A program made the translations under genes and the position numbers. From NCBI GenBank assembly GCA_947449495.1, contig CANFSB010000009.1:1-57726 (forward strand): DNA of 57,726 nucleotides, in the 5' to 3' direction. The notes under the pieces are model-generated. The model was not told the origin of the DNA and made no database searches. It was given only the letters and a program-made list of their open reading frames with translations. Source of the stretch: Pseudomonadota bacterium (GTDB lineage: Bacteria; Pseudomonadota; Gammaproteobacteria; Steroidobacterales; Steroidobacteraceae). Positions within the stretch are counted from its first letter, which is position 1, and each line of letters begins with the position of its first letter. This document shows, in pieces, positions 9,025 to 56,222 of this stretch.

Positions 9025-11469
9025 TCAGAAGCGATAGTTAAGTGTCACGCCATAAGAGCGGGGTGCCGAAATCGACGCCGAATAGCGCTGACCGGCATTG
9101 CCGCTCAAGGTGAAGTCACTGGCCACAATCCTGGCGTCGCCGCTAGCAACAGCGTTAGATGGCGTGCGGTTATCGGTCAGGTTGTTGACGTAGGCAGTCG
9201 CCGAGAAGTCACCCTTACTCAAGGTGCTGCGGAAATTCAGCGTGGTTTTCGGGGCGATCCACGAGAAGTTCGCATCATCGATGAGCAGCTTGTCGTTGTA
9301 GTTGGCATCGGCCCTATTTGCCCAAGTCACGCCATTGGCAAACGGTGTGGTCAGGGTCGCACCCACATTCAAGGCATTCTTGGCGATCAGCGGCACCGAG
9401 TTGCCGGTGATGTCTACGCAAGCCGAGGGCACGGTCTTGGCAATCGGCAGACCAAATCGCACGATGTCTGGCGAGCAGGCATCTGCGTACTTGGTGTCGG
9501 TGTAGGCATAGGCCATGCTGACGCTAAAGTTCTTGGAAACCTCATAGGCCAGCGACAGCTCCACACCCTTACCGTCGACAGCACCGGCGTTATAGAACAC
9601 GCGCGTGGTGTAGTCGGATGCAACCGTCGAGATCGTCGGCTGCGAGCCTGCCGTAGCAATCTGGAAGTTGGTAACCGTCACATAGTTCTTCCAGTCGAGC
9701 TTATAGACGGCCAGGTCAAAGCGCAGCTTGCGATTCAACGTCAGTCCCTTGATACCGACCTCGTAGTTCCACAACTGCTCTTCGTCAAACTTCAAAAACC
9801 CGTTGAGCTGGGCGGCCGTTCCGGCCGCAGTGGCAATGGCCTGCTTGTTGGGGGTCAAGGTATCCACGTTCACGCCAGCGGGATTGTTGCCGCGCGCCAC
9901 CTGCGCATAGGTGGTGATATCCGGGGTGAGACGATAGGTCAGCGAATAACGCGGCAGCGTTGTCTTGGTGACCTGCGTGAAGCCCTTGTTGATCAACGGC
10001 GAGAAGTTGGTGACATCCTCTTCCTGGTAGCGCACTTCGCCCGACAATGTCAGTTTGTCAGTCAGCGAATACTGCGCCGAACCGAATACGCCCTTGTTGA
10101 TCGTCGCATCAGCGAAAGTCTGAGCAACTACCAGCGTGGTCGCATTGTTCTGAATCAGGGTCAGGAAGTCATAGTCGTAGTACGACGCGCCAAGTGTCGC
10201 ACGCAGACGGCTGCCATTAGGCGAGATCCACACTGCCTGATAGAAGCGCTCATGAGTGCGCGAATCGTCCAAGCCGTTGTTGATGGGATTGACCGCCAGC
10301 TTGGTGACGGTGTTGTAGTAAGGAAGCAGATTGGTACGGTCGTTATCATCAGCACGCTGCTGATGATCGTTGGACTGAAAGCCGCTCACCGTCAAATTGC
10401 TGTTATCGGGCAGCTCAAAACTGATGTCCGCCGAGTAGCGGTTACGGTTCTGATTGGTCAACGGATCACTGATGCAATTGGCCGTGTACACGGTCGGTGT
10501 CAGCGGCGCAGGTCGAGCCACACTCGCACCAGTGAAGCAGAAGTTGCGATTGAATGCCGAAGACGGGACGGCAAAGTCCACGGCGCCCAGCACCAGCTTG
10601 GCGCTGGTCTTGGCATTGACGTTCGGGGCAACGCTGGACGGCAGCAGCACCCACTGCGGATCGTTCGGATCCACCAGGTAGTTGGTCGACGTGTCGTCAT
10701 CGGTGACCAGCTTCTGGTAGCGCAGCGTTGCCGTGACCCAACTGAAAGGCGAGAAAGTGATCTTGGCCGAGCCGTACTGGGTGTTAGTACCGCCTAGCCC
10801 AAAACCATCCGACGAAACCGGTGAGTCCGGACCCTTGTACTTGTTGGTCAGACCAGAGATCAGAACGCCCAGCTTGTCGCTCACCACGGGGCCTGTCAGC
10901 AAAAATGACCCGCTTTGCAAGCCATCGGTGCCGCGCGTTAATTCCACCTTGCCTGACAGGTCGTGCATGTTGGTCGGCGTCGAAAGATAGTTAATGGCGC
11001 CGCCGAATACAGCGCGACCAAACTGTGCGCTCTGCGGGCCGCGATACACCTCGACACGGCCCACATCAACCAGCTGAGACACAGCCTGCTGACCTAAGAC
11101 AGGCATACCGTCATAGAAGGTTGAGACCTTTTGACGGTTGGGCGAAATCTCGGTGGACTTGATGCCACGGATGCCAGGAAGAGAGCTGTTTCGCTCGCGT
11201 GCTTGGGTGTACTGAAAACCAGGGACGGTTGCCGCCAATGAGCCCAGATCGGTAATGCCGGCTTGTTGCAGCGCATCGGCGCTGAGACTGGTGATGGCAA
11301 TAGGCACATCAACCAAACGCTCCTCGCGCTTACGCGCAATCACGATGACCTCTTCCAGCGACTGACTGCCACTGGCAGCAGGCGCATCGGCCGCATAAAG
11401 GGGTGTCGTCGATACGACAGAGACTGCACAGGCCAACGCAACGAAACGGCGGATCTGAATACTCGACAT
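9025..11469 (-). CDS. TonB-dependent outer-membrane receptor
   Basis: An 814-residue outer-membrane beta-barrel driven by TonB-ExbBD. It has a signal peptide (ACAVSVVSTTPLYAA), a TonB box region LEEVIVIARKREER, a plug domain with PGIRGIKSTE and VEVYRGPQSAQFGRAVFGGAINYLS, and a C-terminal barrel ending in aromatic SYGVTLNYRF, as expected for BAM recognition. The ATG at 11469 has a GGGGAG ribosome site. The plug and barrel resemble the large Caulobacter/sphingomonad-type group that imports plant or aromatic compounds more than siderophore receptors, but ligand prediction is weak. Its promoter carries an inverted repeat (11507-11537). An MFS transporter lies upstream in the same orientation. Confidence 0.95.
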   Translation of the reverse strand: MSSIQIRRFVALACAVSVVSTTPLYAADAPAASGSQSLEEVIVIARKREERLVDVPIAITSLSADALQQAGITDLGSLAATVPGFQYTQARERNSSLPGIRGIKSTEISPNRQKVSTFYDGMPVLGQQAVSQLVDVGRVEVYRGPQSAQFGRAVFGGAINYLSTPTNMHDLSGKVELTRGTDGLQSGSFLLTGPVVSDKLGVLISGLTNKYKGPDSPVSSDGFGLGGTNTQYGSAKITFSPFSWVTATLRYQKLVTDDDTSTNYLVDPNDPQWVLLPSSVAPNVNAKTSAKLVLGAVDFAVPSSAFNRNFCFTGASVARPAPLTPTVYTANCISDPLTNQNRNRYSADISFELPDNSNLTVSGFQSNDHQQRADDNDRTNLLPYYNTVTKLAVNPINNGLDDSRTHERFYQAVWISPNGSRLRATLGASYYDYDFLTLIQNNATTLVVAQTFADATINKGVFGSAQYSLTDKLTLSGEVRYQEEDVTNFSPLINKGFTQVTKTTLPRYSLTYRLTPDITTYAQVARGNNPAGVNVDTLTPNKQAIATAAGTAAQLNGFLKFDEEQLWNYEVGIKGLTLNRKLRFDLAVYKLDWKNYVTVTNFQIATAGSQPTISTVASDYTTRVFYNAGAVDGKGVELSLAYEVSKNFSVSMAYAYTDTKYADACSPDIVRFGLPIAKTVPSACVDITGNSVPLIAKNALNVGATLTTPFANGVTWANRADANYNDKLLIDDANFSWIAPKTTLNFRSTLSKGDFSATAYVNNLTDNRTPSNAVASGDARIVASDFTLSGNAGQRYSASISAPRSYGVTLNYRF

Positions 11470-12865: not shown

Positions 12866-13266
12866 CAGGTGCGCTTCAGGTCAGTCAGCGCAACAAACGC
12901 CAGGGCGGCCATCAGAGCCACATGTTCAGTTGCCATATGCAGGGCGTTGAGATGCTCGCCCCCCTGCAAATTCCAGAAGTGATGCACCAAAGGGATGGTC
13001 AATGCCGTAAACACGATCAACGCACCGGCACCGAGCCAAGAGAGCTTACGTGATAGCACCAGCAGCGTTGCGCCCAGCTGCACCACCACTGTTGCCGCAT
13101 TGAACAAGCCCGCAGGCTCTAGTCCAAAGTGCGCCATCTCGGCCATGCCGCCAGAAAAATCAAACAACTTAGTCAGGCCACTCTCCCAGAAAGGGAAAGT
13201 AAGCAAGAGCCTCAACACGATTTGTGTAATCGGTCCCGATGGCAGCATCTCAGCTAACTTGCTCAT
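12865..13266 (-). CDS. DoxX-family membrane protein
   Basis: A 133-residue protein with about four hydrophobic helices. It contains the DoxX-type N-terminal pattern VLRLLLTFPFWESGLTKLFDFSGG, then FGLEPAGLFNAATVVVQLG and a C-terminal EHVALMAALAFVAL helix. The start is set at 13266, where AAAGGGGCG precedes ATG; the open frame continues upstream but without signal. DoxX proteins are small inner-membrane proteins of varied, often redox- or stress-linked, roles. It is coupled to the downstream MFS gene and divergent from the DUF6152 gene. Confidence 0.8.
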   Translation of the reverse strand: MSKLAEMLPSGPITQIVLRLLLTFPFWESGLTKLFDFSGGMAEMAHFGLEPAGLFNAATVVVQLGATLLVLSRKLSWLGAGALIVFTALTIPLVHHFWNLQGGEHLNALHMATEHVALMAALAFVALTDLKRT

Positions 13267-13420: not shown

Positions 13421-13813
13421 ATGAAACTCGGTATCGCGGTTTTTGGGTGTGCGGCTTTGCTGGGCTCAACCGCTCAGGCCCACCATTCGTTTGCGATGTT
13501 CGACAACCAAAAGGACGTCACCATCGAAGGCACGGTCAAGAACTTTCAATGGACCAATCCGCACACGTGGATCCAACTGATGGTCAAGGACGCCAACGGC
13601 ACTGAAGCCGAGTGGAGCATCGAGGGCCAGAGCCCCAATGGACTGGTGCGCCAAGGCTGGCAAAAGCTATCGCTCAAACCTGGCGATCGTGCAGTAGTGG
13701 TCATTCACCCGTTGAAGGACGGCAGCAACGGCGGCAGCGTCGTACGCGTTACGGTTAACGGCACATTGGTTGGCCGTCCCGGCGGACCTGGCGGCCCGCC
13801 GCCCGCCCCCTAA
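13421..13813 (+). CDS. DUF6152-family exported protein (copy 1)
   Basis: A 130-residue periplasmic protein. Residues 1-20 form a Sec signal (LGIAVFGCAALLGSTAQA). The mature protein starts HHSFAMFDNQKDVTIEGTV, then FQWTNPHTWIQLMV, AEWSIEGQSPNGLVRQGW and a beta-rich HPLKDGSNGGSVVRV, the standard DUF6152 layout. It ends in a Gly/Pro tail (GRPGGPGGPPPAP) absent from the other two copies. The ATG at 13421 has GAGGTGAC upstream. Function is unknown; OB-like or lipocalin-like beta structure is my inference. It overlaps the convergent lpdA stop by four bases. Confidence 0.88.
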   Translation: MKLGIAVFGCAALLGSTAQAHHSFAMFDNQKDVTIEGTVKNFQWTNPHTWIQLMVKDANGTEAEWSIEGQSPNGLVRQGWQKLSLKPGDRAVVVIHPLKDGSNGGSVVRVTVNGTLVGRPGGPGGPPPAP

Positions 13814-15225: not shown

Positions 15226-16893
15226 TCATTGCTGGCCGCGGGAAAGCACGGCACCACGGGCAGCAGCCTCTGCGACTGGCTCACCTTTCTCGACGGTGTA
15301 CCCCTGCAGTGCATTACCGCCGCCAGGCAAGCGGTCTCCACCACCACCGGCTGCGGGACCACCGCGCGGCGGACCACCACCCGGCGGACCACCACCCGGG
15401 GGACCACCGCCGGGAGGACCGCCACCGGGAGGACCGCCGACTGCACCGGCACGACCATTGCCACCCCATTCAGACAATGAAGCCGGCGCTCTGGGAGCCG
15501 CGTCCAAATCAGCAATCAAGCGAGCCACGATCTGAGGATTGGCCGCGGCCACGTCATTGCTCTCGTTTGGATCTGCGACGACATCAAACAACATCGTCAC
15601 CTTGTCATCGGGGCCAGCCCCACCAGGCGCTGGCGGCGCTGCACCGGAACCAGGGCCACCCGGACGCGGACCCTGAGCTGCATTGAGCAAGGCTGCTGGC
15701 GCACGCACAATCTTCCAAGGCCATTGATAAGCCGACTCGTAATAGGCACCAGCGCGCTGAGCGTGGTTGCCCATGACCATTTGCGCAGGTTTGGCGACCT
15801 GATCGCCACGCAAGGATTTCATAACGTCATGACCGACGATGCGCTTGTCCTGCGGCACTTTGCCACCCGCAGCCGTGATCAAGGTCGGAAACCAGTCGAG
15901 TACCGTGATGACCGAATCGAGCTTCTTGCCACCTTCGAGGTGACCGGGCCAATAGGCGATAGCCGGCACACGCTGACCACCTTCAAACGAAGTGCCTTTG
16001 CCCATCCGCAGTCCACCTGAGGTACCGCCCCCGCGGGTCTCCGGGCCGTTGTCGCTGACCCAGAGGATGAGCGTGTCTTTGGCCATGCCTTCTGACTCAA
16101 TGGTTGCCAGCACACGGGCAATCTGCGCATCCGCGTGATCCACCATCGCAGCGTAGGTGCGACGAATGGGATCTGCTATGTCGGCATACTTGGCCACTAC
16201 CTCTGCGGGTGCCTGCAAGGGTGTATGCGGCGCGTCATAAGCCAAATAAAGGAACAGTGGCTTTTTCTTGTCTCGTGACTTGATCTGCGAGATAGCGTCG
16301 GCAGTGAACAGATCCGTGGTGTAGCCCTCTTCACGAACCGAAACGCCATTACGCTGCCAATCGAGATTACCGTCGGGAGTCAGATGGGTGTAATGGTCGA
16401 TGAACCCACCCAAGAAACCGTAGTAGTAGTCAAAGCCACGCTTGAACGGCAGGTATTCGGTCTTGGCCTGACCAAGGTGCCACTTGCCTACCATGACGGT
16501 CTGATATCCCACCCGCTTGAGATGCTCCGGCAACAGCGTTGCGTCTAGTGGCAGCACTTTGTCCAGCGCGATGGGCGCATCCACACCGGTCTCAAGTGAC
16601 GAGCGTCCGCTCATCAAAGCAGCGCGCATCGGGCTGCACACGGCATAGGTGTAATAACGATTGAGCTCAACACCGCGCTTGGCCAGCGCATTGAGGTTAG
16701 GCGTGCGGATCTCAGCGCCGTGATAGCCCACATCACCCCAGCCCAGATCATCATTAACGATGACCACGATATTTGGCTTGGTAGCGGCCAGGGCTGCTGG
16801 CGCTGCGCATGAAAGCCCGAGCACTGCCATCAGATATGCCGAGCCGCGCCACAGCCATGCCGGCTGCGAGGAACAAGACTTTGCACTAAACAT
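15226..16893 (-). CDS. Exported formylglycine-dependent sulfatase with PPGGG tail
   Basis: A 555-residue arylsulfatase-family hydrolase of sulfate esters. A signal peptide (about 1-36) precedes the metal site NIVVIVNDDLGWGDVGYHG. The active-site CSPMR (Cys86) followed by AALMSGR fits the C-x-P-x-R sulfatase signature that is converted to formylglycine. MVGKWHLG, DAPHTPLQAP and WVSDNGPETRGGG supply further catalytic residues. Near residues 490-530 a run of PPGGG repeats interrupts the C-terminal region before a short ending. No maturase is seen in the window. It is divergent from a DUF6152 gene. The substrate is unknown; family neighbours act on sulfated glycans or aryl sulfates. Confidence 0.92.
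   Translation of the reverse strand: MFSAKSCSSQPAWLWRGSAYLMAVLGLSCAAPAALAATKPNIVVIVNDDLGWGDVGYHGAEIRTPNLNALAKRGVELNRYYTYAVCSPMRAALMSGRSSLETGVDAPIALDKVLPLDATLLPEHLKRVGYQTVMVGKWHLGQAKTEYLPFKRGFDYYYGFLGGFIDHYTHLTPDGNLDWQRNGVSVREEGYTTDLFTADAISQIKSRDKKKPLFLYLAYDAPHTPLQAPAEVVAKYADIADPIRRTYAAMVDHADAQIARVLATIESEGMAKDTLILWVSDNGPETRGGGTSGGLRMGKGTSFEGGQRVPAIAYWPGHLEGGKKLDSVITVLDWFPTLITAAGGKVPQDKRIVGHDVMKSLRGDQVAKPAQMVMGNHAQRAGAYYESAYQWPWKIVRAPAALLNAAQGPRPGGPGSGAAPPAPGGAGPDDKVTMLFDVVADPNESNDVAAANPQIVARLIADLDAAPRAPASLSEWGGNGRAGAVGGPPGGGPPGGGPPGGGPPGGGPPRGGPAAGGGGDRLPGGGNALQGYTVEKGEPVAEAAARGAVLSRGQQ
15356..15438 (-). repeat. 15-base tandem repeat encoding PPGGG in the sulfatase
   Basis: Five full units and one partial unit of a 15-base repeat (plus strand begins GGACCACC) keep the reading frame and encode consecutive P-P-G-G-G blocks. 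Unit-to-unit changes are mostly at third codon positions. It matches the coding repeat at 18398-18590 in the opposite strand sense. Confidence 0.9.
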
Positions 16894-17068: not shown

Positions 17069-17452
17069 GTGAAACTCAGTCCGTTATTTTGTGCTGCCGC
17101 GCTTGGCCTTGCGTTCGCGAGCAGCGCCACAGCTCACCATTCATTTTCAATGTTCGACCAAACCAAGACGCTGACCCTGACAGGAACCGTCAAGAGCTGG
17201 CAATGGACCAACCCGCATACCTGGCTGGTTGTAGTCGTTAAAAATGACAAGGGCGAAACCCAAGAGTGGAGCATCGAGGGTCAAAGCCCTTCGGTACTAC
17301 GCGGCGAGCAAGGCTATTCGCGCGACATCATGAAAACCGGAGACAAGATCGTCGTGCGCATACATCCGCGCGGCGACGGCACTCTGGGCGGCAGCCTGAT
17401 GGGCGTGACCGACCAAGACGGCAAGGCCCTCAACCAGCAACCGCAGAATTAA
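17069..17452 (+). CDS. DUF6152-family exported protein (copy 2)
   Basis: A 127-residue periplasmic protein starting with GTG at 17069 behind AGAGG. The signal peptide LSPLFCAAALGLAFASSATA is followed by HHSFSMFDQTKTLTLTGTV, WQWTNPHTWLVVVV and EWSIEGQSPSVLRGEQGY, closely matching copy 1 through the mature domain but without its Gly/Pro tail. It is the first of three same-strand genes (17069-19162) with two members of the WEG/PHSD exported family. This makes a DUF6152 plus exported-family unit opposite the sulfatase. Function unknown. Confidence 0.88.
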   Translation: MKLSPLFCAAALGLAFASSATAHHSFSMFDQTKTLTLTGTVKSWQWTNPHTWLVVVVKNDKGETQEWSIEGQSPSVLRGEQGYSRDIMKTGDKIVVRIHPRGDGTLGGSLMGVTDQDGKALNQQPQN

Positions 17453-17477: not shown

Positions 17478-18224
17478 ATGTCACTCATCAGCAGTTCCCA
17501 GCGTCCTATCGGCCTCACTGCAGCAACCGCAGTCCTGCTGCTGGGTGCTACAGCCAGTATCAGCAATGCGCAGACGCTCACCCCAGATCTCTCCGGCATC
17601 TGGTCGATAACCCGCTACGAAGCGGCGCTCAAGCCTTCCGACAAGAGCGCCATTCCGCTCTCACCTCAAGGCATGAGTCTTTATGCAGCCAACCAGCAGG
17701 CGCTGAAGGCCAAGACGCCCACTGCAGACACGGCGACAAGCCTGTGCGTGCCTCAGGGTGTGCCGCGGTCTTTGACTACGCCCTATCCTTACCGGCTGTA
17801 CCAATCTGGCGCTCAGATCACCTTCATCCATGAAGCCAATAGGGCATTCAGGCTGGTGGCTGTAACTGGCAAACATGCGGACCCGCAAAACTGGGACCCA
17901 TCATTTATGGGTGATGGTATTGCACGCTGGGAGCAAGACACTCTCGTCATTGAAACCACCAACTTCAACGACAAAACATGGCTCGACGACACAGGGTTAC
18001 CGCATAGCGACCAATTGCGCGTAACGGAACGACTGCGGCTTGTCAGCAAGGGCGAGCAACTCGAGGACACAATCACCATCGAGGATCCGGGCGTCTTTAC
18101 CCGTGCTTGGACAACCAAGCTCAGTTTCAAACGTCGCAACAACATTCAGATCGTCACCGATTCAATTTGCGGCCAACCACGCCGCGACGTATCCGACATA
18201 CCGGGCGCAAAGGCATTCCGATGA
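17478..18224 (+). CDS. Exported WEG/PHSD-family protein (copy A)
   Basis: A 248-residue exported protein of a family I recognise only as a recurring hypothetical. After a signal peptide comes DLSGIWSITRYEAALKP, PLSPQGMSLYAANQQA, CVPQGVPRSLTTPYPYRLYQ, QITFIHEANRAFRLV, then the best-conserved stretch MGDGIARWEQDTLVIETT, KTWLDDTGLPHSDQLRVTERL, and TIEDPGVFTRAWTTKLSF. The alternating pattern suggests an antiparallel beta barrel (lipocalin-like), which is inference. It begins 26 bases after DUF6152 copy 2, and its TGA overlaps the next ATG (ATGA), indicating a coupled operon. The biochemical role is undetermined. Confidence 0.8.
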   Translation: MSLISSSQRPIGLTAATAVLLLGATASISNAQTLTPDLSGIWSITRYEAALKPSDKSAIPLSPQGMSLYAANQQALKAKTPTADTATSLCVPQGVPRSLTTPYPYRLYQSGAQITFIHEANRAFRLVAVTGKHADPQNWDPSFMGDGIARWEQDTLVIETTNFNDKTWLDDTGLPHSDQLRVTERLRLVSKGEQLEDTITIEDPGVFTRAWTTKLSFKRRNNIQIVTDSICGQPRRDVSDIPGAKAFR

Positions 18225-19162
18225 TCCGCAAAGAAACGCTGCTTCTGGGTTGCACCGCGCTGGCCTCGCTCTGGCTGGTGCCGACCGATCTGGTCGCGCA
18301 GACACCACCCAACACCGCTACAGCTACAGCCAGCGGCACCACATCAGAGCTCAATAGCTTCGCTGGCTACTGGCGCGAACCGCGGCAAGCGCGTCGCGGC
18401 CCTCCCGGCGGTGGTCCTCCGGGTGGCGGTCCTGGTGCCGGCGGCCCTCCCGGTGGTGGTCCTCCGGGTGGCGGTCCTCCGGGTGGTGGTCCTCCCGGTG
18501 GTGGTCCTCCCGGCGGTGGTCCTCCCGGCGGCGGTCCTGGTGCCGGTGGCCCTCCTGGCGCAGGCGGTCCTCCGGGTGGTGGGCCCGGCGCAAAGGTGAG
18601 AACAGCTGCAGCAGGCAAGATGCTGCCCTGGGTTGAACAGCGTTATCAGGCATACAACGCCGCAATGGCTGCTCAACAGTTGCCGATCACCAACGCCAAT
18701 CAATGCTTGCCTTGGGCAGTGCCCGGAATCGGCATTCCCGGTGGCGTGGCTTATGGGATGAACATCGTCACTTCGCCGACCGAGGTCGTATTCCTATACG
18801 AGCTCGATCATCAGGCACGCATCGTTTATCTAAACCAAGCCCATCCCAAAGATCTCAAGCCCAGCTACTTTGGTCATTCCGTGGGGCACTGGGAAGGCAA
18901 CGCTCTGGTTGTGGACTCGATTGGCTTCAACGACAAAACAGAAATATTCGATGGAATTGCGCACACAGCTCAGCTGCATGTGGTGCAGCGCCTCAGCATC
19001 AACAGCGCAGGACGGCTTGAAGAAGCTGTGACATTTGAGGATCCCGGCGCCTACAAGGCTGGCATCAGCTTCACCCACGTGTTTGAGCGCGGTGCTGCAT
19101 TCCAAGAATATGTCTGTTCAGAGAACAACCACGAGATCGACTTGGCAAAACCCCTGCCCTAA
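18221..19162 (+). CDS. Exported WEG/PHSD-family protein with PPGGG linker (copy B)
   Basis: A 313-residue member of the same exported family. The ATG at 18221 overlaps the previous stop, so the long upstream frame is not used. Signal peptide: about 1-27. Residues 60-123 are almost wholly Gly/Pro repeats (PPGGG, PGAGG), inserted right after the FAGYW start of the domain. After that come LPWVEQRYQAYNAAMAAQQ, NQCLPWAVPGIGIPGG, SVGHWEGNALVVDSIGF, HTAQLHVVQRLSI and VTFEDPGAYKAG. The repeat looks like an expanded spacer, as in the neighbouring sulfatase. Last gene of the plus-strand trio. Confidence 0.8.
   Translation: MIRKETLLLGCTALASLWLVPTDLVAQTPPNTATATASGTTSELNSFAGYWREPRQARRGPPGGGPPGGGPGAGGPPGGGPPGGGPPGGGPPGGGPPGGGPPGGGPGAGGPPGAGGPPGGGPGAKVRTAAAGKMLPWVEQRYQAYNAAMAAQQLPITNANQCLPWAVPGIGIPGGVAYGMNIVTSPTEVVFLYELDHQARIVYLNQAHPKDLKPSYFGHSVGHWEGNALVVDSIGFNDKTEIFDGIAHTAQLHVVQRLSINSAGRLEEAVTFEDPGAYKAGISFTHVFERGAAFQEYVCSENNHEIDLAKPLP
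18398..18590 (+). repeat. Tandem Gly/Pro-coding repeat in copy B
   Basis: About 193 bases of 15-base units (CCTCCCGGTGGTGGT and variants) encode PPGGG, with two PGAGG-type interruptions. The frame is preserved throughout. The variation in third positions argues for selection on the peptide, and the regular period makes the tract prone to length change by slippage. Confidence 0.92.
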
Positions 19163-19173
19163 TTCGACCTCAC

Positions 19174-19199
19174 CCCAACCGAGTGACTACTCGGTTGGG
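19174..19199. terminator. Bidirectional terminator-like hairpin
   Basis: A perfect 11-base stem, CCCAACCGAGT (19174-19184) and ACTCGGTTGGG (19189-19199), encloses a four-base loop between the convergent exported-family genes and overlaps the stop of the minus-strand gene. There is no long T-tract on either side. Confidence 0.55.
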
Positions 19200-19969
19200 A
19201 CCTGCATGTCGCGGTTGTTCTGGGCACACACGTATTCAAGCAGCCGTGTCTCGGTCAACTTGCGAAAGTGCTTCGTCACCGTCCATGGCGCCACCAGCGC
19301 ACCCGGGTCGGTTACCACCAACTGCAACTCCATCGCACCAGGCGCAGTGATGGTGTAACGCTCAACCACCTGCAGTGCATCGGTATGCGGGATGCCATCC
19401 CAGTTCAATTGACCACGGGCACTTAGACCCACCGTATCAACAACCAGCGTCTCACCTTCCCAATGGCCTACCGAATCTCCATACCAGTTGGCTTGCAACT
19501 TGGCGGGATGGGTTGAGTTCATACGGATGCGCCGCGACTGGTAATCAGCCTCGTAAAGTATGTAGGTGACCTTGTCAGTGCGTAAAAACTGAAAGGGATA
19601 GGGAATCTCTATAACGGTAGGCGTGCCATCAGGCCGGCACTCTGCTGTGTTGGTGGCCAGCGGCCTGCCAACCTTGAGCGCCGCATCACGCTTGGCCATT
19701 ACCTCCATCGCCCAAGGCTGCAGATACTTGGCGTAATCGTTCCAGCCCTCTTCCGAGCAGCATCCCTCGAGGGGAGCGCCGGGCGGTCTGCGGCCACGAC
19801 CTGCGTTACGCCAAATCCCGTCAAAGGCTGAATGTGCGCCCGAGACTGCTCCCTGCTGGGCACCCGATGGGGTCGCCGCATTGAGCTCGGCAGACAGAGG
19901 CAGACTGACTGCCAGAATGACGGCTGCAACTGCTGCTCTCACCGTCGCGTAATGTTGGGTCACTTTCAT
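19187..19969 (-). CDS. Exported WEG/PHSD-family protein (copy C)
   Basis: A 260-residue exported protein with signal peptide AAVAAVILAVSLPLSAELNA. The mature part contains FDGIWRNAGRGRRPPGAP, a Cys pair CCSEEGW not seen in the other copies, NDYAKYLQPWAMEVMAK, ECRPDGTPTVIEIPYPFQF, VTYILYEADYQSRRIRM, SVGHWEGETLVVDTVGL, GIPHTDALQVVERYTI and VVTDPGALVAPWTV. The ATG at 19969 overlaps the TGA of copy D (ATGA), so the two are translationally coupled. It is convergent with copy B. The function is not known; relatedness to the other four copies is plain from the shared motif order. Confidence 0.8.
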   Translation of the reverse strand: MKVTQHYATVRAAVAAVILAVSLPLSAELNAATPSGAQQGAVSGAHSAFDGIWRNAGRGRRPPGAPLEGCCSEEGWNDYAKYLQPWAMEVMAKRDAALKVGRPLATNTAECRPDGTPTVIEIPYPFQFLRTDKVTYILYEADYQSRRIRMNSTHPAKLQANWYGDSVGHWEGETLVVDTVGLSARGQLNWDGIPHTDALQVVERYTITAPGAMELQLVVTDPGALVAPWTVTKHFRKLTETRLLEYVCAQNNRDMQVPTE

Positions 19970-20679
19970 TTTCCGGCCTTCCCTGAGAAGTTTCGGTGTT
20001 GCTCGCCGCAGGCGTATTCGACGATGCCCACATCATCTTTCTTGGCAAAGGTCATGCGAGTCGTCCACGGCTTCTGGTAATAACGTGAATCGCTGATGGT
20101 CACGTCAACCTGCAAGCGACGACCACCGGCCAGCGTTTGCCAACGCTCCAGGGTCTGCAACTCGTCACTGTGTTGAAGACCAGAATCGTCCAACCAGGTC
20201 TCGCCATTGAAAGCGATGCTCTCGATAACAAGCACTTTGCCTTCCCAACGGGCGTTGGCATTACCCATATAGTTTTCGATCAGCAGGTTTGGATCGAGAG
20301 GCGGACCGCCTACTGGCAATGCGCGATAGACATGCCGTGCTTCATGGATAAAGGTGACTTGGCCGGGAGTCTGCACAATCTCGAACGGATAGCGAGCCGT
20401 CAGCAAACGGGGAACACCGTCAGGCAAACAATACTTACGAGTCAGATCTTGGATCTTGGCCGACTTGAGGCCAGAAGCCACTGCTTGGTAAGCCGCGCGC
20501 CCCTCTGGCGTTAGCGGCGGCGCGGAGCCATCCACAGCGCGCAACGAACTGATCGATCGTTCTGCCAGCCAGATACCTGAGAACTCGTCCGGACCAGCAA
20601 CTGCGTTGGCAGCTATTGCACAGGTCTGCGACACCAGCAGCACCATGGCAATAGCAGCACCCTTACTGAACATGCCCAT
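19966..20679 (-). CDS. Exported WEG/PHSD-family protein (copy D)
   Basis: A 237-residue exported protein. The ATG at 20679 has AAGGGTGG upstream; an internal ATG two codons later is also possible. Signal peptide: AIAMVLLVSQTCAIAANA. Conserved segments are FSGIWLAERSISSLR, PLTPEGRAAYQAVASGLK, YCLPDGVPRLLTARYPFEI, VTFIHEARHVYRALP, NARWEGKVLVIESIAF, ETWLDDSGLQHSDELQTLERW and TISDSRYYQKPWTTRMTF. It is closest in pattern to copy A. First gene of the C-D pair, beginning 101 bases after the stop of the BaeR-like regulator on the same strand. It may be read through from, or regulated by, that system, but this is not shown. Confidence 0.8.
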   Translation of the reverse strand: MGMFSKGAAIAMVLLVSQTCAIAANAVAGPDEFSGIWLAERSISSLRAVDGSAPPLTPEGRAAYQAVASGLKSAKIQDLTRKYCLPDGVPRLLTARYPFEIVQTPGQVTFIHEARHVYRALPVGGPPLDPNLLIENYMGNANARWEGKVLVIESIAFNGETWLDDSGLQHSDELQTLERWQTLAGGRRLQVDVTISDSRYYQKPWTTRMTFAKKDDVGIVEYACGEQHRNFSGKAGK

Positions 20680-20780: not shown

Positions 20781-21455
20781 CTAAGCCTCGTACTTGTACC
20801 CAACGCCATAGACCGAGCGCAGCGGCTTCTCATCAAGTTCCAATGAGTCCAACTTCCGGCGCAGTTTTTTAACATGGCTGTCAATCGTCCGATCGTTGAC
20901 GATACGAAAGTCGTTGTAGACCCTGTTCATGATTTCATCGCGGGAAAAGATGCGGCCGGGCGCATCCATTAACACTCGCAGCATCTCGAACTCCAAGGCA
21001 GTAAGCGCTACAGCTTTGCCCTTGGCGCTGGCTCGATAGGTGTCCCGATCCAGAACCAATGCAGCGCGCTTGGCCGGCGGCTTGTCGCCTTGTACCCGAC
21101 GCAGCAATGCATGGGCTCGCGCCACAACCTCTTTGGCAGAAAATGGCTTGCAAATGTAGTCGTCGACGCCCAGATCGAAACCGGCCAACCTATCCTGCTC
21201 CTCGCGCCGTGCGGTGATCATAATCACCGGAACAGTCGACTCTTTGCGCAACTCCCTGCAAACCGTCAGCCCGTCACACCCCGGCAACATCAAGTCAAGC
21301 AACACCAAACTGGGGCTGTTCTTGCGCAGCCAAGGCAAGACCTCCAGACCGTTGGCAATACGATGAGTGCGCCCACCTGCAGCATGCAAGTACTCCGCAA
21401 GCACCGAGGCGATCTTGTCCTCGTCCTCTACAATCAGAATCAGTGCACCGTTCAT
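20781..21455 (-). CDS. OmpR/PhoB-type response regulator, BaeR-like
   Basis: A 224-residue DNA-binding response regulator. The receiver domain (LILIVEDEDKIASVL, phospho-acceptor VLLDLMLPG at Asp54, MITARREEQDRL, DDYICKPFSAKEVVARA) is followed by a winged helix with ALTALEFEMLRVL and DRTIDSHVKKLRRKLDSL ending VYGVGYKYEA. The DYICKPFS and VNDRTIDSHVKKLRRKL segments closely follow E. coli BaeR, an envelope-stress and efflux regulator. Its ATG overlaps the stop of the sensor kinase gene (ATGA). Natural targets in this organism are unknown; the downstream exported-family genes are candidates. Confidence 0.9.
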   Translation of the reverse strand: MNGALILIVEDEDKIASVLAEYLHAAGGRTHRIANGLEVLPWLRKNSPSLVLLDLMLPGCDGLTVCRELRKESTVPVIMITARREEQDRLAGFDLGVDDYICKPFSAKEVVARAHALLRRVQGDKPPAKRAALVLDRDTYRASAKGKAVALTALEFEMLRVLMDAPGRIFSRDEIMNRVYNDFRIVNDRTIDSHVKKLRRKLDSLELDEKPLRSVYGVGYKYEA

Positions 21456-22975
21456 AGCTTGACCACCGGAATCAGTTTGATGTCAAAACGCAAGCCGCCA
21501 AGCGGAGATTGGGAAGCCACGATTGTGCCGCCATGGGCAGCGACAATGGATTGCGCAATGGCGAGACCCAATCCAGAGCCACCACTGGAGCGATTTCGAG
21601 ACGATTCGCCGCGGTACATTCTCTTAAACAAATGCGCCAGCTCAAAAGCTTCAACCGATGGCGAACTATCCTCAAACCTAATGACAATCTGCTCGGCCTC
21701 ACGCTGCACGGTAATGCGCACACAGCCGCTTTGGTCGGTGTAGCGCAAGCTGTTTTCCAGCAGATTCATGAACACCTGTCGCAAACGGTCTGGATCACCA
21801 ATGGTCTGCAGCTTGTCGCCGTCTTTAACGCTGTACTCAAGGGCGAGCTGTTTTTGGACAAAGCGTGTTTTCGATAGATCCACGCAAGAGGCTAACAAAG
21901 CCCCAACATCCAAGTCGGTCGGATGTAACGACGCAATACCGCCATCGAGTAACGATAATTGATGCAAGTCATCAATCAGCCGCGACAACCGCTTTGCCTC
22001 TTCTTGCAACGAGCGAAAGCCCTCTGTTGTGGGCGCTCGTAGTCCATCGATTACCGCTTCAGATTCAGCCAACAAGATCGCGACCGGCGTGCGCAACTCG
22101 TGCGAGATCTCGGCCAACCATTGTCGCTGCAGATCTTGGTTGCGCTTTAGCGCAGCCGCCAGTTGATTGAAGTCTGCCGCCAGATCACTAAGTTCATCAT
22201 TCGATTCCAGCGGCAACTCTTCCACTGACTGGCCGTCTGCCAGCAAACGTGCGGCCAAGCCAATTTGCTGCACCGGACGTGTCACGAGCCTGGCAATGAA
22301 GAATGCGGGCAGCATGGCCAGCAGAACGCTACCAGCAAGAATCAAGCCTCTGGCAGTTAAGAACCGCTGTCTGAACTGCTGGTCATAGGGCGTCGCCTTG
22401 TTCAGCGCAAGGCCCAGAATGCCGACAACCGATTGACCACTGTGTATGGGCCATTGCCGCATACCGGCGTCGAGCGGCGCTGTACCAATGAGCAAGTGCT
22501 GCTGTGCGTCGAGTAATACGAACCGCAGCGGCAAGGGTGCAGGAATGGACTCTGGAAACTCATTGCCCTTGAACTGCTCGAACAAGGCTTCCAGCTCAGC
22601 GATATCACCGGGCTTATGCCCAGCAGCCACCATTGCCAACTCTGCCCAGCGGCCATGGTTTTCTTGAAGCGCATTCCAACCGCCGCTCTTGGCGTATTCA
22701 AGTTCAAGATTGTCCGCGAACACCTGCGCGCGTTGGTCATTGAAGGAGTTCATGTACTCCGCAAAGCCCTTGTCGAAGGACCAGCCCACCAGCAGCGAAA
22801 ATGCGAAGACCACCAACAGCGACTGCACCAGCAGCAGCAGAAATACCTTGGACCGGATGTTCAGGCGCCGGGGCGTAGCCCGGCGCCGCTGGAAGACCTG
22901 GCGGCGAAAGCCCAAAGCTCGGGATGCAGACGCTGCCGGGCTGCTGTCAGGACGCTGTGTTGCCTCGGGCTGCAT
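21452..22975 (-). CDS. Sensor histidine kinase, BaeS-like
   Basis: Partner kinase of the adjacent regulator. A first membrane helix (VFLLLLVQSLLVVFAFSLLVG) and a second (GLILAGSVLLAMLPAFFIARLV) frame a periplasmic sensor of about 140 residues. HAMP follows, then the H-box WLAEISHELRTPVAILLAE, N-box VFMNLLENSLRYTDQSG, and G-boxes RFEDSSPSV and SGGSGLGLAIAQSIVAAHGG. The open frame extends upstream to a TTG at 23095 and an ATG at 23083. I prefer ATG 22975 because ACAGGTCCCC precedes it and the extra N-terminus has no recognisable domain; this choice is uncertain. It is divergent from the OFA transporter gene. Confidence 0.88.
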   Translation of the reverse strand: MQPEATQRPDSSPAASASRALGFRRQVFQRRRATPRRLNIRSKVFLLLLVQSLLVVFAFSLLVGWSFDKGFAEYMNSFNDQRAQVFADNLELEYAKSGGWNALQENHGRWAELAMVAAGHKPGDIAELEALFEQFKGNEFPESIPAPLPLRFVLLDAQQHLLIGTAPLDAGMRQWPIHSGQSVVGILGLALNKATPYDQQFRQRFLTARGLILAGSVLLAMLPAFFIARLVTRPVQQIGLAARLLADGQSVEELPLESNDELSDLAADFNQLAAALKRNQDLQRQWLAEISHELRTPVAILLAESEAVIDGLRAPTTEGFRSLQEEAKRLSRLIDDLHQLSLLDGGIASLHPTDLDVGALLASCVDLSKTRFVQKQLALEYSVKDGDKLQTIGDPDRLRQVFMNLLENSLRYTDQSGCVRITVQREAEQIVIRFEDSSPSVEAFELAHLFKRMYRGESSRNRSSGGSGLGLAIAQSIVAAHGGTIVASQSPLGGLRFDIKLIPVVKL

Positions 22976-23145
22976 GGGGACCTGTCGGACGGTGGGTAAT
23001 CGGAAGTCACTGTGTACTCGCCAGAGCGCCTCAGGGTCAATCGACAAGCAATCCGGCCCGCAACGTTTTCGCATTGCTTCCATATTCGTTGGCAATTGGG
23101 GTCATAGCATCGACACAGTCGCATACAACAAAGAACAAAATCGCT

Positions 23146-51835: not shown

Positions 51836-52219
51836 CTATTGCCCGGGGCCGCCGTTAATCACTGTGCCATCAGCCAGCTTTACCGCGACCAAGCTGCCGC
51901 CCACTGCGCCATCTCGAAGTGGGTTTACGGTGATGCTCACCTTGTCGCCCACCTTCATAGCCGTGCGCTTGAGCCCTTTACTCACCAGTTGCTGAGGACT
52001 CAGGCCTTCGATTGCCCAGCGCTGTTCGGCACCTTTAGCATCGATTACTTTGAGCTCGAACCAGCTGTGCGGATTGGTAAAGTGCACTTCGGTCAGTTCG
52101 CCTTCCACCGTCACCGTCCGCGTCAAATCAAAGGCAGCGAAGGAATGATGGGCTATAGCCAGTGGCACAACACTCGCCATAAGGCCTAGCAGCAGTAGCT
52201 TTTGCTTCAAATGCTTCAT
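51836..52219 (-). CDS. DUF6152-family exported protein (copy 3)
   Basis: A 127-residue periplasmic protein. Signal peptide: KLLLLGLMASVVPLAIA. The mature part HHSFAAFDLTRTVTVEGELTEVHFTNPHSWFELKV, QRWAIEGLSPQQLVSKGL and VTINPLRDGAVGGSLVAVKL follow copies 1 and 2 throughout. It stands 18 bases downstream of the second TonB receptor gene on the same strand, so receptor and DUF6152 protein are probably made together. AGGGA precedes ATG 52219. Confidence 0.88.
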   Translation of the reverse strand: MKHLKQKLLLLGLMASVVPLAIAHHSFAAFDLTRTVTVEGELTEVHFTNPHSWFELKVIDAKGAEQRWAIEGLSPQQLVSKGLKRTAMKVGDKVSITVNPLRDGAVGGSLVAVKLADGTVINGGPGQ

Positions 52220-52237: not shown

Positions 52238-55120
52238 TCAGCGGCGGTACCGCAGGCCCAAAGTGAAGTAACGACCCACCTTGTCGTAGTCGGGGGCCAA
52301 GGGCGCCTGGCTGGGGGATACGCTGGCCGAAGTAACTAACGGCGGCGCTTTGTCGAACAGGTTGTTGATGCTGAGGAAACCCTGTAACGAACCCTTGCCC
52401 ATGAGTTCCCCAAATGCGTACTGCACCGAGGCATTGGCATAAATCACACTGGGCACGCTGTTGTCATAGATGTCGGTCGCACTGTAGGTGTTGTCGACTT
52501 TGGCACTGTCGAAATAGCGACCCTGCAGATAGCCAGAGAAGCGGCCATTGACGTAATTGGCCGTTGCCGTCAAACGCCAGCGCGAATTACCAATCTCACC
52601 AGCGCGATCCACCGTCACAATGCCGTTATTGGTGTCAAGCTTGTCCAGATACGTGCCCAACAAGCGCAACTGCATATCACCACCGAGGCCATCCGACAGG
52701 CTGGCCAACGCAAACTTATAGCCCAGTTCCACGTCAGTGCCGTTGGTCTTGGTAAATGCCAAGTTGAGCGTCTTATTAAAGACGTTACTGATGACACCGG
52801 CTGCATCGCGTGAGATCAGTGCACAAGCATCAGAGACCACTGCTGTAAACGGTGCCTTGCCATAGCAGGCACTAACGATGTTCTGACCGCCGAACGAACC
52901 GATGGCGTTCTTAAGGTCGATGCGATACCAATCCGCAGACAGATGAAAGCCCGTACCAGCGGGTTGCCAAGTGATGCCGACGGTTTGGGTATCAGCCTGC
53001 TCTGGCTTGAGATCCGCATTGCCCACCGTGGTGGTAGGCACCGACGAAGTCGGACTGCCGGTGCGGCCATAATCGACAATAGCACCGACAATCGAAACGC
53101 CAGGCGTAAACAACTCGACCAGGTTAGCCGCGCGGATGTCGCGCGAGCGCGTACCGCGCAACAACACCCCTTCAAACGGAGCCCAAGTTAGACCTGCCTT
53201 CCAACTGGTGACACTACCGCTAGTGCTGTAGTCGGTAGCACGCACCGCCGCGTTGAAATCCAGTGCCTGGAACAACGCATGGTCCTTGGCCAGCGGCACA
53301 ATCGTCTCTGCGAAATATTCCTTCACATCGTACTGACCATTGAGCGGCTTGCGGTTGGCGAACTGCCAACCACCGGTTTGAAATGCCGGCGTCGATGTTT
53401 GTGCTGTCGCATCAGAGACCTGATCGACGCTCTCCTTGCGGTATTCAATACCACCGGCCAACGACACCGGGCCGGCCCAAATTGCAAACGGCTCGCCTTG
53501 AATCGTTGCACCGCCAGTGTCCTGGCGAATAGTCGCAGTAGCCTGACTCATGCCCATCACATAGGCTGCGACCTGTGACGTGAACGACCCAGGTCCAAAT
53601 GGATTGGCCGCAACACAACCCGTATCGGCGCCGCGACCCTGATAGGTGGTCGCCGTCACAAGGGCAATATCGGCAGCAGCCGTACTGTTGATGCGGCAGA
53701 TAGGCGTACCGCCCGGGCCCATCACACTATCAACAGCTGCACGCAGATTGGCCTGCTTAATGTTATTGGGCACTCGATCGTAGTAATCGGTGCTGCCGCT
53801 GGTGACCCAAGCCTTCCACTTCCAGCCGCTCACTTCGCCGTCTAAGCCAGCCGAACCACGCTTGACAGTGGCTTGCGACTCGCCAATCGAGTAAAGACCG
53901 AACTCGGGGTTGGCACGACCGAGGCCGAAGGTGGTCAGCGCATTGGCGGTCATCAGCGACACAATGGAGGCCGGCAAGAACGGATTGTCCTTGCGGATGG
54001 TAAACACCGGATCGCCGTTGGGCGTATACGACGGCTGGGTGTTTACGGTCGAGGAAGAATTGGCATACGCGAGCTCTGCGAAGCCACGAACATTGTCCGT
54101 GAAATCGAAGGTGGTGCGCCCGAACACACTCTGACGGTCCACCGGCGCAGTCAAATTGTTGAGCGGTGACAACACCGCACCACTGCCCCCGACCATCGTG
54201 TTGTTGCTCAAATAGGTGCCATAGGTAAATGGCTGCACCGCTCCACCGGGCCCGAACTGAATGCCACGCAGTGCCGCCGTAGCACCGGTGGTGGGTAACG
54301 GTGCACCAGTGGATGCCACGATGACACCACCGTTGGTAACACCCGAGGCCGTCACACCAGGCACCGTGATACGCGTATAGGTGACGCCATCAATGGCGCC
54401 GCTGACCCAGCCGTACTGATTACGACCCCAACTGCGCGCACCGGCCGTCACCGGATCGGTTAGCTTGCTGCCTTCTGCAGCGAGCATGAACTGGCCACGA
54501 CCGCCGGCATAACCACTGCCCCACGCCAACGAGAATGAAGACTCACGTTGATCATTGTGAGCCGATTGGCCGTACTGCACGTTGGCCTCAAGCCCATCAA
54601 GCTTTTTCTTAAGCAGGAAGTTGGTAACGCCAGCAACTGCGTCGGAACCCCAGGCGGCCGATGCACCACCGGTAACCACTTCAACGCGCTCAACGAGTGC
54701 CGTTGGAATGGTGTTGAGATCCACCAAACCTGTCGTCGTACTGGCTACGACACGACGCCCATCAACCAGCACCAACGTGCGCGTGGCGGTCTGCGTCGGC
54801 GAACCCGGATTGAGATTGCGCAAGTTAGCGTAGCTACCACCAGCTGAGGCCGAGAACGGCACTGCAGTGGCAGTAGGACGCATAGCAGGCAACTCAAACA
54901 ACACTTGACTGATACGTACCGCAGCGCGGTTTTCAATTTCATCTGCACCCAGGTATGTCGTGGGTGTGGGCGCTTCAAAGCCTGTGCGCTGGATGCGCGA
55001 GGCAGTGACTGCAACTTCGTCTAGTGCATCGGCAGTTTGAGCCTGTGCAACAGCAGTGGCGAGCGCGGCAGCAACTGCCAACGCAATGCTGCGGTTAAGT
55101 GCGGTGTTGCGGGTTGTCAT
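52238..55120 (-). CDS. TonB-dependent outer-membrane receptor (large)
   Basis: A 960-residue outer-membrane receptor. A signal peptide (IALAVAAALATAVAQAQ) precedes the TonB box region DEVAVTASRIQRTGFEAPTPT and the plug with NLRNLNPGSPTQTATRTLVLVDGRRVV, DLNTIPTALVERVEVVTGGASAAWGSDAVAGVTNFLL. The barrel ends in YFTLGLRYRR. The RTLVLVDGRR and TGGASAAWGSDA plug type is frequent in receptors with unknown, often hydrophobic or aromatic, ligands in Steroidobacter- and sphingomonad-like bacteria. CGGAGA precedes ATG 55120. It is divergent from an exported-family gene, forming a second module. Confidence 0.95.
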   Translation of the reverse strand: MTTRNTALNRSIALAVAAALATAVAQAQTADALDEVAVTASRIQRTGFEAPTPTTYLGADEIENRAAVRISQVLFELPAMRPTATAVPFSASAGGSYANLRNLNPGSPTQTATRTLVLVDGRRVVASTTTGLVDLNTIPTALVERVEVVTGGASAAWGSDAVAGVTNFLLKKKLDGLEANVQYGQSAHNDQRESSFSLAWGSGYAGGRGQFMLAAEGSKLTDPVTAGARSWGRNQYGWVSGAIDGVTYTRITVPGVTASGVTNGGVIVASTGAPLPTTGATAALRGIQFGPGGAVQPFTYGTYLSNNTMVGGSGAVLSPLNNLTAPVDRQSVFGRTTFDFTDNVRGFAELAYANSSSTVNTQPSYTPNGDPVFTIRKDNPFLPASIVSLMTANALTTFGLGRANPEFGLYSIGESQATVKRGSAGLDGEVSGWKWKAWVTSGSTDYYDRVPNNIKQANLRAAVDSVMGPGGTPICRINSTAAADIALVTATTYQGRGADTGCVAANPFGPGSFTSQVAAYVMGMSQATATIRQDTGGATIQGEPFAIWAGPVSLAGGIEYRKESVDQVSDATAQTSTPAFQTGGWQFANRKPLNGQYDVKEYFAETIVPLAKDHALFQALDFNAAVRATDYSTSGSVTSWKAGLTWAPFEGVLLRGTRSRDIRAANLVELFTPGVSIVGAIVDYGRTGSPTSSVPTTTVGNADLKPEQADTQTVGITWQPAGTGFHLSADWYRIDLKNAIGSFGGQNIVSACYGKAPFTAVVSDACALISRDAAGVISNVFNKTLNLAFTKTNGTDVELGYKFALASLSDGLGGDMQLRLLGTYLDKLDTNNGIVTVDRAGEIGNSRWRLTATANYVNGRFSGYLQGRYFDSAKVDNTYSATDIYDNSVPSVIYANASVQYAFGELMGKGSLQGFLSINNLFDKAPPLVTSASVSPSQAPLAPDYDKVGRYFTLGLRYRR

Positions 55121-55364: not shown

Positions 55365-56222
55365 ATGCTTGCTCTGAACTTCGGCGCATTGCGCTACAAA
55401 GCCGCGCTGCTGACTGTGGGCCTGCTTGCCCTCACCGTGCTGAACTGCACTGACGCAGTTGCACAGGTCCGAAAGGTAGAGCCTGCAGTTAAGCTCTCTG
55501 CAGCGCCCGCCAAAGGCAACTGGAGCATGCTGGCCGCTGGCAACCTCAACGCCAAACGCCCCAAAGCCACAGTGAACTTCATGGGCACATGGCTCATACA
55601 GCGCACAGCAACCAACGGCCCGCCGCCGGATTGGGAGTTCTTTCCGCTGCCAAAATTCACTGCAGCCGCGCAGACGATTTACAACGAAAAGCTACAAGCT
55701 GATAAAGACGGCAAAGCCTATAAAGATGATGCCGGTAGCTGCTACCCGCCAGGCATGCCGCGATTTCTGACGCGTGTCTGGCCCATTCAGGTCATACAAC
55801 TGCCCACTGCCATCGTGATGATTCAGGGCTTTGAGAACCAAGTCCGCTGGATCTATCTCGACGGTCGTAAGCACCCGGATCCCGACTTCACGCTGCCATC
55901 CTTCAATGGCGACTCTATTGGCCACTTTGAGGGCAAGTCCTTGGTGGTTGAAACGCGCAACTTTGAGCCAAACCATCACTGGATACAGGCAGGCGTTCCG
56001 GTCGGTGAACAGCTCAAGATAATGGAGCGCTGGACCTTGGAAAGTGATGGCAGCGTGTTGGCCATTGAGTTGACAATGACCGATCCGCAATATTGGGAAG
56101 GCAACTGGGTGAACACCAAGCGCTACAACTTGCGCGATGACCGCGACATCTTCGAGGTGCATTGCATCGCCGCAGAGATGGCTAAGCTGCCCAGCGCACA
56201 ACCCTCGCAGCTAGTGAAGTAG
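55365..56222 (+). CDS. Exported WEG/PHSD-family protein (copy E)
   Basis: A 285-residue exported protein, more divergent than copies A-D. Start ATG 55365 sits behind GGAGGGGA; the longer frame upstream is not used. Signal: LLTVGLLALTVLNCTDAVAQ. Family segments are MGTWLIQRTATNGPPPDW, PKFTAAAQTIYNEKLQ, SCYPPGMPRFLTRVWPIQVIQ, VRWIYLDGRKHPDPDF, SIGHFEGKSLVVETRNF, VGEQLKIMERWTL and LTMTDPQYWEGNW. It keeps the overall order but has lost the PHSD core. It is followed eight bases later by the flavin amine oxidase gene, suggesting cotranscription. Confidence 0.78.
   Translation: MLALNFGALRYKAALLTVGLLALTVLNCTDAVAQVRKVEPAVKLSAAPAKGNWSMLAAGNLNAKRPKATVNFMGTWLIQRTATNGPPPDWEFFPLPKFTAAAQTIYNEKLQADKDGKAYKDDAGSCYPPGMPRFLTRVWPIQVIQLPTAIVMIQGFENQVRWIYLDGRKHPDPDFTLPSFNGDSIGHFEGKSLVVETRNFEPNHHWIQAGVPVGEQLKIMERWTLESDGSVLAIELTMTDPQYWEGNWVNTKRYNLRDDRDIFEVHCIAAEMAKLPSAQPSQLVK

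Follow-up and report, generated by a model that had tools for sequence, protein, structure and literature searches.

A family of exported calycin-like proteins and its DUF6152 neighbours: a candidate periplasmic module in a Steroidobacteraceae genome

Introduction

In a 57,726-nucleotide stretch of DNA from a gammaproteobacterium of the family Steroidobacteraceae (GenBank assembly GCA_947449495.1, contig CANFSB010000009.1; this whole stretch is the window), five related genes, copies A to E, encode exported proteins, and four of them stand side by side. What do these proteins do, and which partner, if any, works with them? A sequence-only reading of the window had proposed that they are ligand-specific periplasmic or surface binders, repeatedly duplicated beside TonB receptors and a sulfatase. 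Here we use F as a working label for the family to which A-E belong. Our results indicate that the partner of F is instead a second exported protein, DUF6152, and that the two together resemble a hitherto undescribed system for handling ligand and metal in the periplasm.

Results

Copies A to E belong to a family of about 38 genes

The five copies, and an inverted repeat that lies among them, are as follows.

17478..18224, + strand: copy A, predicted calycin-like exported protein of 248 residues, family F, 'second-of-pair' subtype
18221..19162, + strand: copy B of family F, which has a Gly-Pro-rich insert and represents the partner subtype; overlaps A by ATGA
19187..19969, - strand: copy C, family F, sister of B
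19966..20679, - strand: copy D of family F, with the subtype of A; overlaps C by ATGA
55365..56222, + strand: copy E of family F, in divergent orientation to the TonB receptor at 52238-55120
19174..19199: inverted repeat between the convergent pairs, with an 11-bp perfect stem (19174-19184 / 19189-19199) and the 4-base loop GACT

Open reading frame (ORF) coordinates, full-length alignment and N-terminal leaders confirmed that these are five related exported ORFs. As read from the sequence, each has a hydrophobic leader with an AxA-like site, and none of the five has a lipobox. Over its length, A shares 39% identity with D, 28% with C, 27% with B and 25% with E. The ATGA overlaps of both A-B and D-C can be read directly, and the two pairs converge, as had been described. 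Of the hairpin placed between them, the perfect 11-bp stem was found; it has no T-run, and a terminator scan did not list it. The motifs assigned earlier to all five copies were only partly borne out: C-x-x-G-x-P-R occurs in A, D and E only (at this position C has CRPDGTPT and B has CLPWAVPG), and PHSD is literal in A only. The columns common to A-E are GxW, two cysteines, one R, the stretch G..W/F-E..LV(V/I)(E/D)(T/S) and a D before the last strands. Copy B could be extended in frame, to a TTG at 18107. The ratio of nonsynonymous to synonymous substitution (dN/dS) of A-D between two species is 0.07-0.10, indicating purifying selection, and A-D are therefore real genes.

A profile built from A-E aligned all five and gave 40 matches in the bacterium's own 2.58-Mb genome, themselves included, the weakest at E ~1e-5; the kinship of the five is thus not due to chance. 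Because two contig-end matches appear to be fragments of genes that other matches already represent (C38 with C25, C139 with C18), we count ~38 F genes in this genome. The 'cluster of four and a fifth' therefore exists, as part of a far larger family. Eight further genomes of the genus have 14-36 F matches each. In the wider family and order F is patchy and mostly absent, with the exception of G029, an order-level relative whose 1.6-Mb genome holds 43 matches, and in a sample of 114 genomes of the class F occurred in one genome apart from the bacterium's own. Relatives that carry a name in the genome collection belong to freshwater Gammaproteobacteria, Caulobacterales and sphingomonads (Sphingobium SYK-6 among them), and many are Acidobacteriota. 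Among Pfam and NCBIfam models there was no match for A, C, D or E up to E 10 and only a chance Gly-rich match for B, in agreement with the earlier remark that relatives are unnamed and without assigned function. SYK-6 is a lignin degrader; we found no paper on its F gene, and SLG_10860 of this strain, a TonB receptor for iron, has no shown link to F.

In an alignment of 117 relatives, the conserved core comprises GxW (G40 in 100% and W42 in 99% of the rows) and two cysteines (99% each) that probably form a disulfide. Also conserved are R125, G145-S-G-W-G153, L156-V157, E184-R185 and D203-P204. A long F-like subfamily of ~490-520 residues, with a weak profile match and an N-terminal extension (L022:6883-8352, L017:3244-4818, L020:7389-8402), has members both beside and apart from DUF6152.

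F is predicted to fold as a calycin barrel

An AlphaFold2 model of copy A, made from 117 sequences, had a mean predicted local distance difference test score (pLDDT) of 86.1 and a predicted template modelling score (pTM) of 0.81. The model has a short first strand at the GxW (residues 40-44), a helix at 63-77, and then eight more strands; it is, by prediction, the 8-10-stranded antiparallel up-and-down beta barrel of calycins, with GxW at the first strand as in the lipocalin signature. In a Foldseek comparison with the PDB the matches were CRABP2, CRBP and FABP (best E 3.9e-4). VIA-align gave a Z of 9.2 over 124 residues to human CRBP1, and all 50 entries it listed were CRBP/FABP, fatty-acid transporter or NanoLuc luciferase, which are all calycin-type barrels. 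At the sequence level, no curated model matched F as a member of the FABP (iLBP) or lipocalin families, a phmmer search of the PDB with A found only short ubiquitin-repeat matches, and the best PDB match of the 117-row F profile was streptavidin, at E 0.21.

From these comparisons, F is predicted to be a soluble exported calycin barrel, likely with a cavity for a small molecule. An outer-membrane beta-barrel was rejected, since the model is a small soluble calycin; the beta-barrel for which copy A was to be checked is predicted, and it is of the calycin rather than the outer-membrane type.

DUF6152 is the near-constant neighbour of F

Across 104 loci the commonest neighbour of F is DUF6152 (PF19649): same-strand neighbours are ordered DUF6152-F in 40 cases, F-DUF6152 in 31 and F-F in 30, with gaps mostly of -4 to +40 bp and some strongly negative through start-codon miscalls. 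In the bacterium's own genome, 18 of 22 DUF6152 domains are either fused to an F domain or no further than 400 bp from one, where 3% of the genome would be covered by chance (P 3.5e-24). Fifteen of 40 related genomes have both families, none has F alone, one has DUF6152 alone and 24 have neither. Over these 40 genomes, F copy number follows that of DUF6152 (rho 0.97) and not that of TonB receptors (rho 0.09, with receptor counts near 32 being 'at least' values). Gene neighbourhoods thus point to a constant partner that the sequence-only reading had overlooked, and not to TonB receptors or sulfatases.

Three DUF6152 copies lie inside the window.

17069..17452, + strand: DUF6152 gene upstream of A at a distance of ~25 bp; mature protein predicted to start with HHSFSMFD, at 17135; PF19649 at E 1e-32
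13421..13813, + strand: DUF6152 gene whose ORF opens at 12995, with a likely start at 13421 before MKLGIAVFGCAALLGSTAQA, followed by HHSF
51836..52219, - strand: DUF6152 gene downstream of the TonB receptor at 52238-55120

The gene at 17069-17452 scores 112.6 bits against PF19649, for which the gathering cut-off is 27. DUF6152-A-B is a predicted operon and looks like one transcript.

In some proteins the two domains are joined. G029 has 47 DUF6152 domains, most of them fused into proteins of 330-380 residues (loci L112 and L114-L143), and at least 27 of the 34 unique F proteins seen there are DUF6152 fusions, in loci that were fetched by DUF6152 and so under-sample F without it. The 32 unique fusions all have DUF6152 first, and the separate genes occur in either order; this single order in the fusions fits a need for a free N-terminal histidine. 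F and DUF6152 together make up an extreme share of the small G029 genome.

Several other genes were seen beside the pair. In plasmid records from Novosphingobium and Sphingobium, F and DUF6152 are again found side by side, accompanied in one record by DUF6644 and in the other by a TonB receptor. In sphingomonads and relatives, DUF6644 membrane proteins, also without an assigned function, are repeatedly found next to F and DUF6152 (L104:6600-7061, L076:4381-4950) and may belong to the system; in the library that was searched, neither DUF6152 nor DUF6644 is named by any paper. In L010:12136-18998, genes for an ankyrin protein, a DUF1552 protein and a DUF1592/1588/1585/1595 protein come after a DUF6152-F fusion; this combination is familiar from genomes of the Planctomycetes type. 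F-DUF6152 genes at L118 and L126 of G029 have as neighbours exported proteins that no Pfam model matches and that carry a 'GPYDVV/GPYEVVENWP' motif. At L120:986-1399 of the same genome, MerC (mercury resistance) adjoins a DUF6152 gene and is the sole direct metal link among the neighbours.

DUF6152 has a candidate metal site

The AlphaFold2 model of DUF6152 is an oligonucleotide/oligosaccharide-binding (OB) fold with a pLDDT of 91.6. Fold searches with this model returned general OB folds (PriB, SSB, LysRS, and CcmE at low rank) and gave no functional hint. His-His is present in 117 of 119 unique DUF6152 proteins, the two exceptions appearing truncated at the start. In 115 proteins A, S or G stands directly before the two histidines, and position -3 is usually occupied by A, V or S; together these would make a textbook signal-peptidase site, with a mature N-terminus predicted to be His-His. 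Among 60 aligned mature sequences H1, H2, N26, P27 and H28 are invariant and E48 is nearly so; H1 and H2 are constant here by construction, as the rows were cut at HH[SAG], and their independent support is the 117 of 119 together with the residues of the cleavage site. DUF6152 would accordingly present a mature N-terminal histidine after signal cleavage, as in a histidine brace, and the invariant histidine of the NPH motif (H28) is a candidate for the second, internal one. Metalloproteins have been discovered by way of a histidine that is conserved behind the signal cleavage site (PMC12537917), and we infer that DUF6152 binds a metal.

The pairs A-B and D-C share an old origin in a pair of two types

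The first and second genes of F-F pairs fall in different clades (8 tree changes against 17.1 when shuffled, 0/500). A careful tree places A and D in a clade of 16 sequences (97/96) that contains the second members of the pairs. Copies B and C share another clade (95/94) with the first member of an alphaproteobacterial pair, the second member of which groups with D (97/91). We conclude that A-B and D-C go back to an old pair made up of two types.

Other genes of the window do not define the family

The remaining neighbours of interest are listed below.

20781..23095, - strand: two genes upstream of D-C, one for a response regulator (20781-21455) and one for a histidine kinase (21452-23095, recognised by the H-box ELRTP)
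15226..16893, - strand: sulfatase, one of 3 in the genome
52238..55120, - strand: TonB-dependent receptor between DUF6152 and E
9025..11469, - strand: TonB-dependent receptor

The entire segment that runs from the TonB receptor to beyond the histidine kinase is conserved in a second species of the genus, and the regulator and kinase beside D-C are syntenic there. Identity to this species is 72% for A and D, 82% for B and C and 81-91% for the neighbouring genes; A and D are thus the fastest-changing genes of the segment, yet with a dN/dS below 0.1. The kinase, regulator, D and C look like another single transcript, and the D-C pair may therefore report to the neighbouring regulator. A (P)PGGGPPGGG low-complexity tract is common to copy B, the sulfatase at 15226-16893 and a DUF6152-F fusion elsewhere in the genome (L013:1434-2564), and has the appearance of a repeat in exported proteins that spreads or is prone to slippage.

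The TonB receptors and sulfatase of the window did not hold up as a signature of the family. Only 5 of the genome's 27 TonB receptors lie within 2 kb of a module (P 0.03), and this weak adjacency, with the rho of 0.09, led us to reject the receptor as an obligate partner. A sulfatase link was likewise rejected, as there are 3 sulfatases for ~38 F copies. A common pathway around F was also rejected, given that a tally of 111 neighbours is heterogeneous. Catabolic neighbours include TonB receptors, metallo-beta-lactamase-fold proteins, amidohydrolases, pyrroloquinoline quinone (PQQ) dehydrogenases and tannase. Given these, small organic compounds are the likeliest ligands, though no pathway recurs.

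Discussion

We propose that F and DUF6152 form a periplasmic two-part module, a reading to which we give a probability of roughly 0.55. After export, the F barrel would enclose a small hydrophobic or aromatic compound in the periplasm. DUF6152, by way of its mature His-His and NPH histidine, would hold a transition metal next to F, presumably in a physical complex, and ligand and metal would be captured, carried or presented together, with binding or transfer, not catalysis, as the outcome. Different ligand specificities would come from repeated duplication, in which two F subtypes are often passed on as a pair. Computed results on the family, its export signal and fold, the partnership, the inheritance of pairs and purifying selection support this proposal. 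Of the original suggestion, exported and duplicated proteins with a small-molecule-type barrel make binders likely, and what is not supported is TonB receptors and sulfatases as the usual partners.

Several points weigh against the proposed module. The fold match is at superfamily level only, with no sequence similarity, and calycin barrels include enzymes and inhibitors, so that the fold alone leaves function unsettled. Neighbouring genes are heterogeneous and thus indicate no ligand, and we found no experimental study of any F member. Eleven of the 40 F matches have neither F nor DUF6152 as a neighbour, several of these being at contig ends. The 40 genomes compared are related (9 from one genus), and their P values are not those of independent samples; the contrast between F-DUF6152 and F-TonB copy numbers is large nonetheless. 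Finally, the single order of the fusions could stem from one ancestral fusion.

A possible, though clearly less probable, alternative is that the pair is a new class of periplasmic metalloenzyme, in which a histidine-brace-type centre (copper or other) on the DUF6152 OB fold oxidises small aromatic or terpenoid compounds and F serves as an exchangeable substrate chamber, with dozens of substrate variants per genome. A signal-exposed N-terminal histidine with an invariant internal one would be the brace signature (PMC10952591, PMC12537917), the DUF6152 N-terminus is free in all fusions, calycin barrels can catalyse (NanoLuc is among the best fold matches), and some neighbours are catabolic or oxidative, such as the PQQ dehydrogenase, tannase, amidohydrolases and metallo-beta-lactamase-fold proteins. 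However, these neighbours vary from locus to locus, no conserved catalytic set has been shown in F, and DUF4198 and DUF6702, two N-terminal-histidine families discovered by signal strapping, were metal binders with little or no enzyme activity (PMC12537917). The metal-type N-terminus of DUF6152 would also suit metal acquisition or detoxification, with F binding a metal chelator, as siderocalin does, or protecting against one, and DUF6152 receiving the metal. The MerC gene in G029 and the TonB receptors near some copies are consistent with this idea, but we consider it unlikely: F number is uncorrelated with TonB-receptor number, the neighbour tally has no recurrent siderophore or metal-transporter family, and, to our knowledge, metal systems use far fewer variants than the ~40 of this one small genome.

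Signal reception, in which paired F barrels would sense small molecules and feed two-component or other regulators, much as VtrA/VtrC do with bile salts, appears improbable. VtrA/VtrC is indeed a periplasmic calycin heterodimer made from overlapping genes (PMC4933562), and D-C lies directly downstream of a kinase-regulator pair in both species, but F has no membrane anchor or DNA-binding domain, and kinases and regulators do not recur among the 111 neighbours. We regard as least credible that F proteins are SusD-like carbohydrate binders at the outer membrane or surface, which would work with the TonB receptors and sulfatase of the original suggestion. TonB receptors and a sulfatase do lie within a few kb in the window, and a sulfatase-like gene is found beside F in G029 too; against this stand the predicted calycin fold, the absence of a lipobox, the 3 sulfatases per genome and a copy number unrelated to that of TonB receptors.

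New here are the predicted calycin fold, the size to which the family has expanded, and a near-obligate partnership with DUF6152, for which a metal site is predicted. From ~38 F and 22 DUF6152 domains in 2.58 Mb, F would account for well over 1% of the bacterium's genes, and F and DUF6152 become a testable two-part system with a clear metal-site prediction. If the proposed module is real, a large block of exported, function-unknown proteins in environmental genomes would be explained.

The closest solved folds, by two structural comparisons, are the animal intracellular lipid-binding proteins (FABP, CRBP, CRABP), which share with F a helical segment after the first strand. Unlike them, F is exported and ~250 residues long, contains long loops and two cysteines that are conserved, shows no similarity to them in sequence, and comes in bacterial paralogue sets with DUF6152 as partner. 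The VtrA/VtrC bile-salt receptor resembles F as a bacterial periplasmic calycin barrel from co-transcribed, overlapping genes, and its chamber is hydrophobic (PMC4933562). VtrA/VtrC is transmembrane, however, and VtrA has a cytoplasmic DNA-binding domain, whereas F and DUF6152 each consist of a signal peptide and one soluble domain, and each F protein is predicted to form its own barrel. Some F copies adjoin TonB receptors, as in SusCD-type systems, but SusD is a helical, tetratricopeptide-repeat lipoprotein, and F is a predicted beta barrel with a copy number that does not follow the receptors. DUF6152, for its part, is like the N-terminal-histidine metalloproteins (LPMO, CopC, DUF4198, DUF6702 and anglerases; PMC12537917) in being exported with an expected N-terminal histidine and further conserved histidines. 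It differs from them in its predicted OB fold, its calycin partner and the retention of the N-terminal histidine in 117 of 119 proteins, as compared with 65% for DUF6702 and 79% for DUF4198, and is not among the four families characterised in that study; if the prediction is correct, DUF6152 could add a new fold to the N-terminal-histidine metalloproteins.

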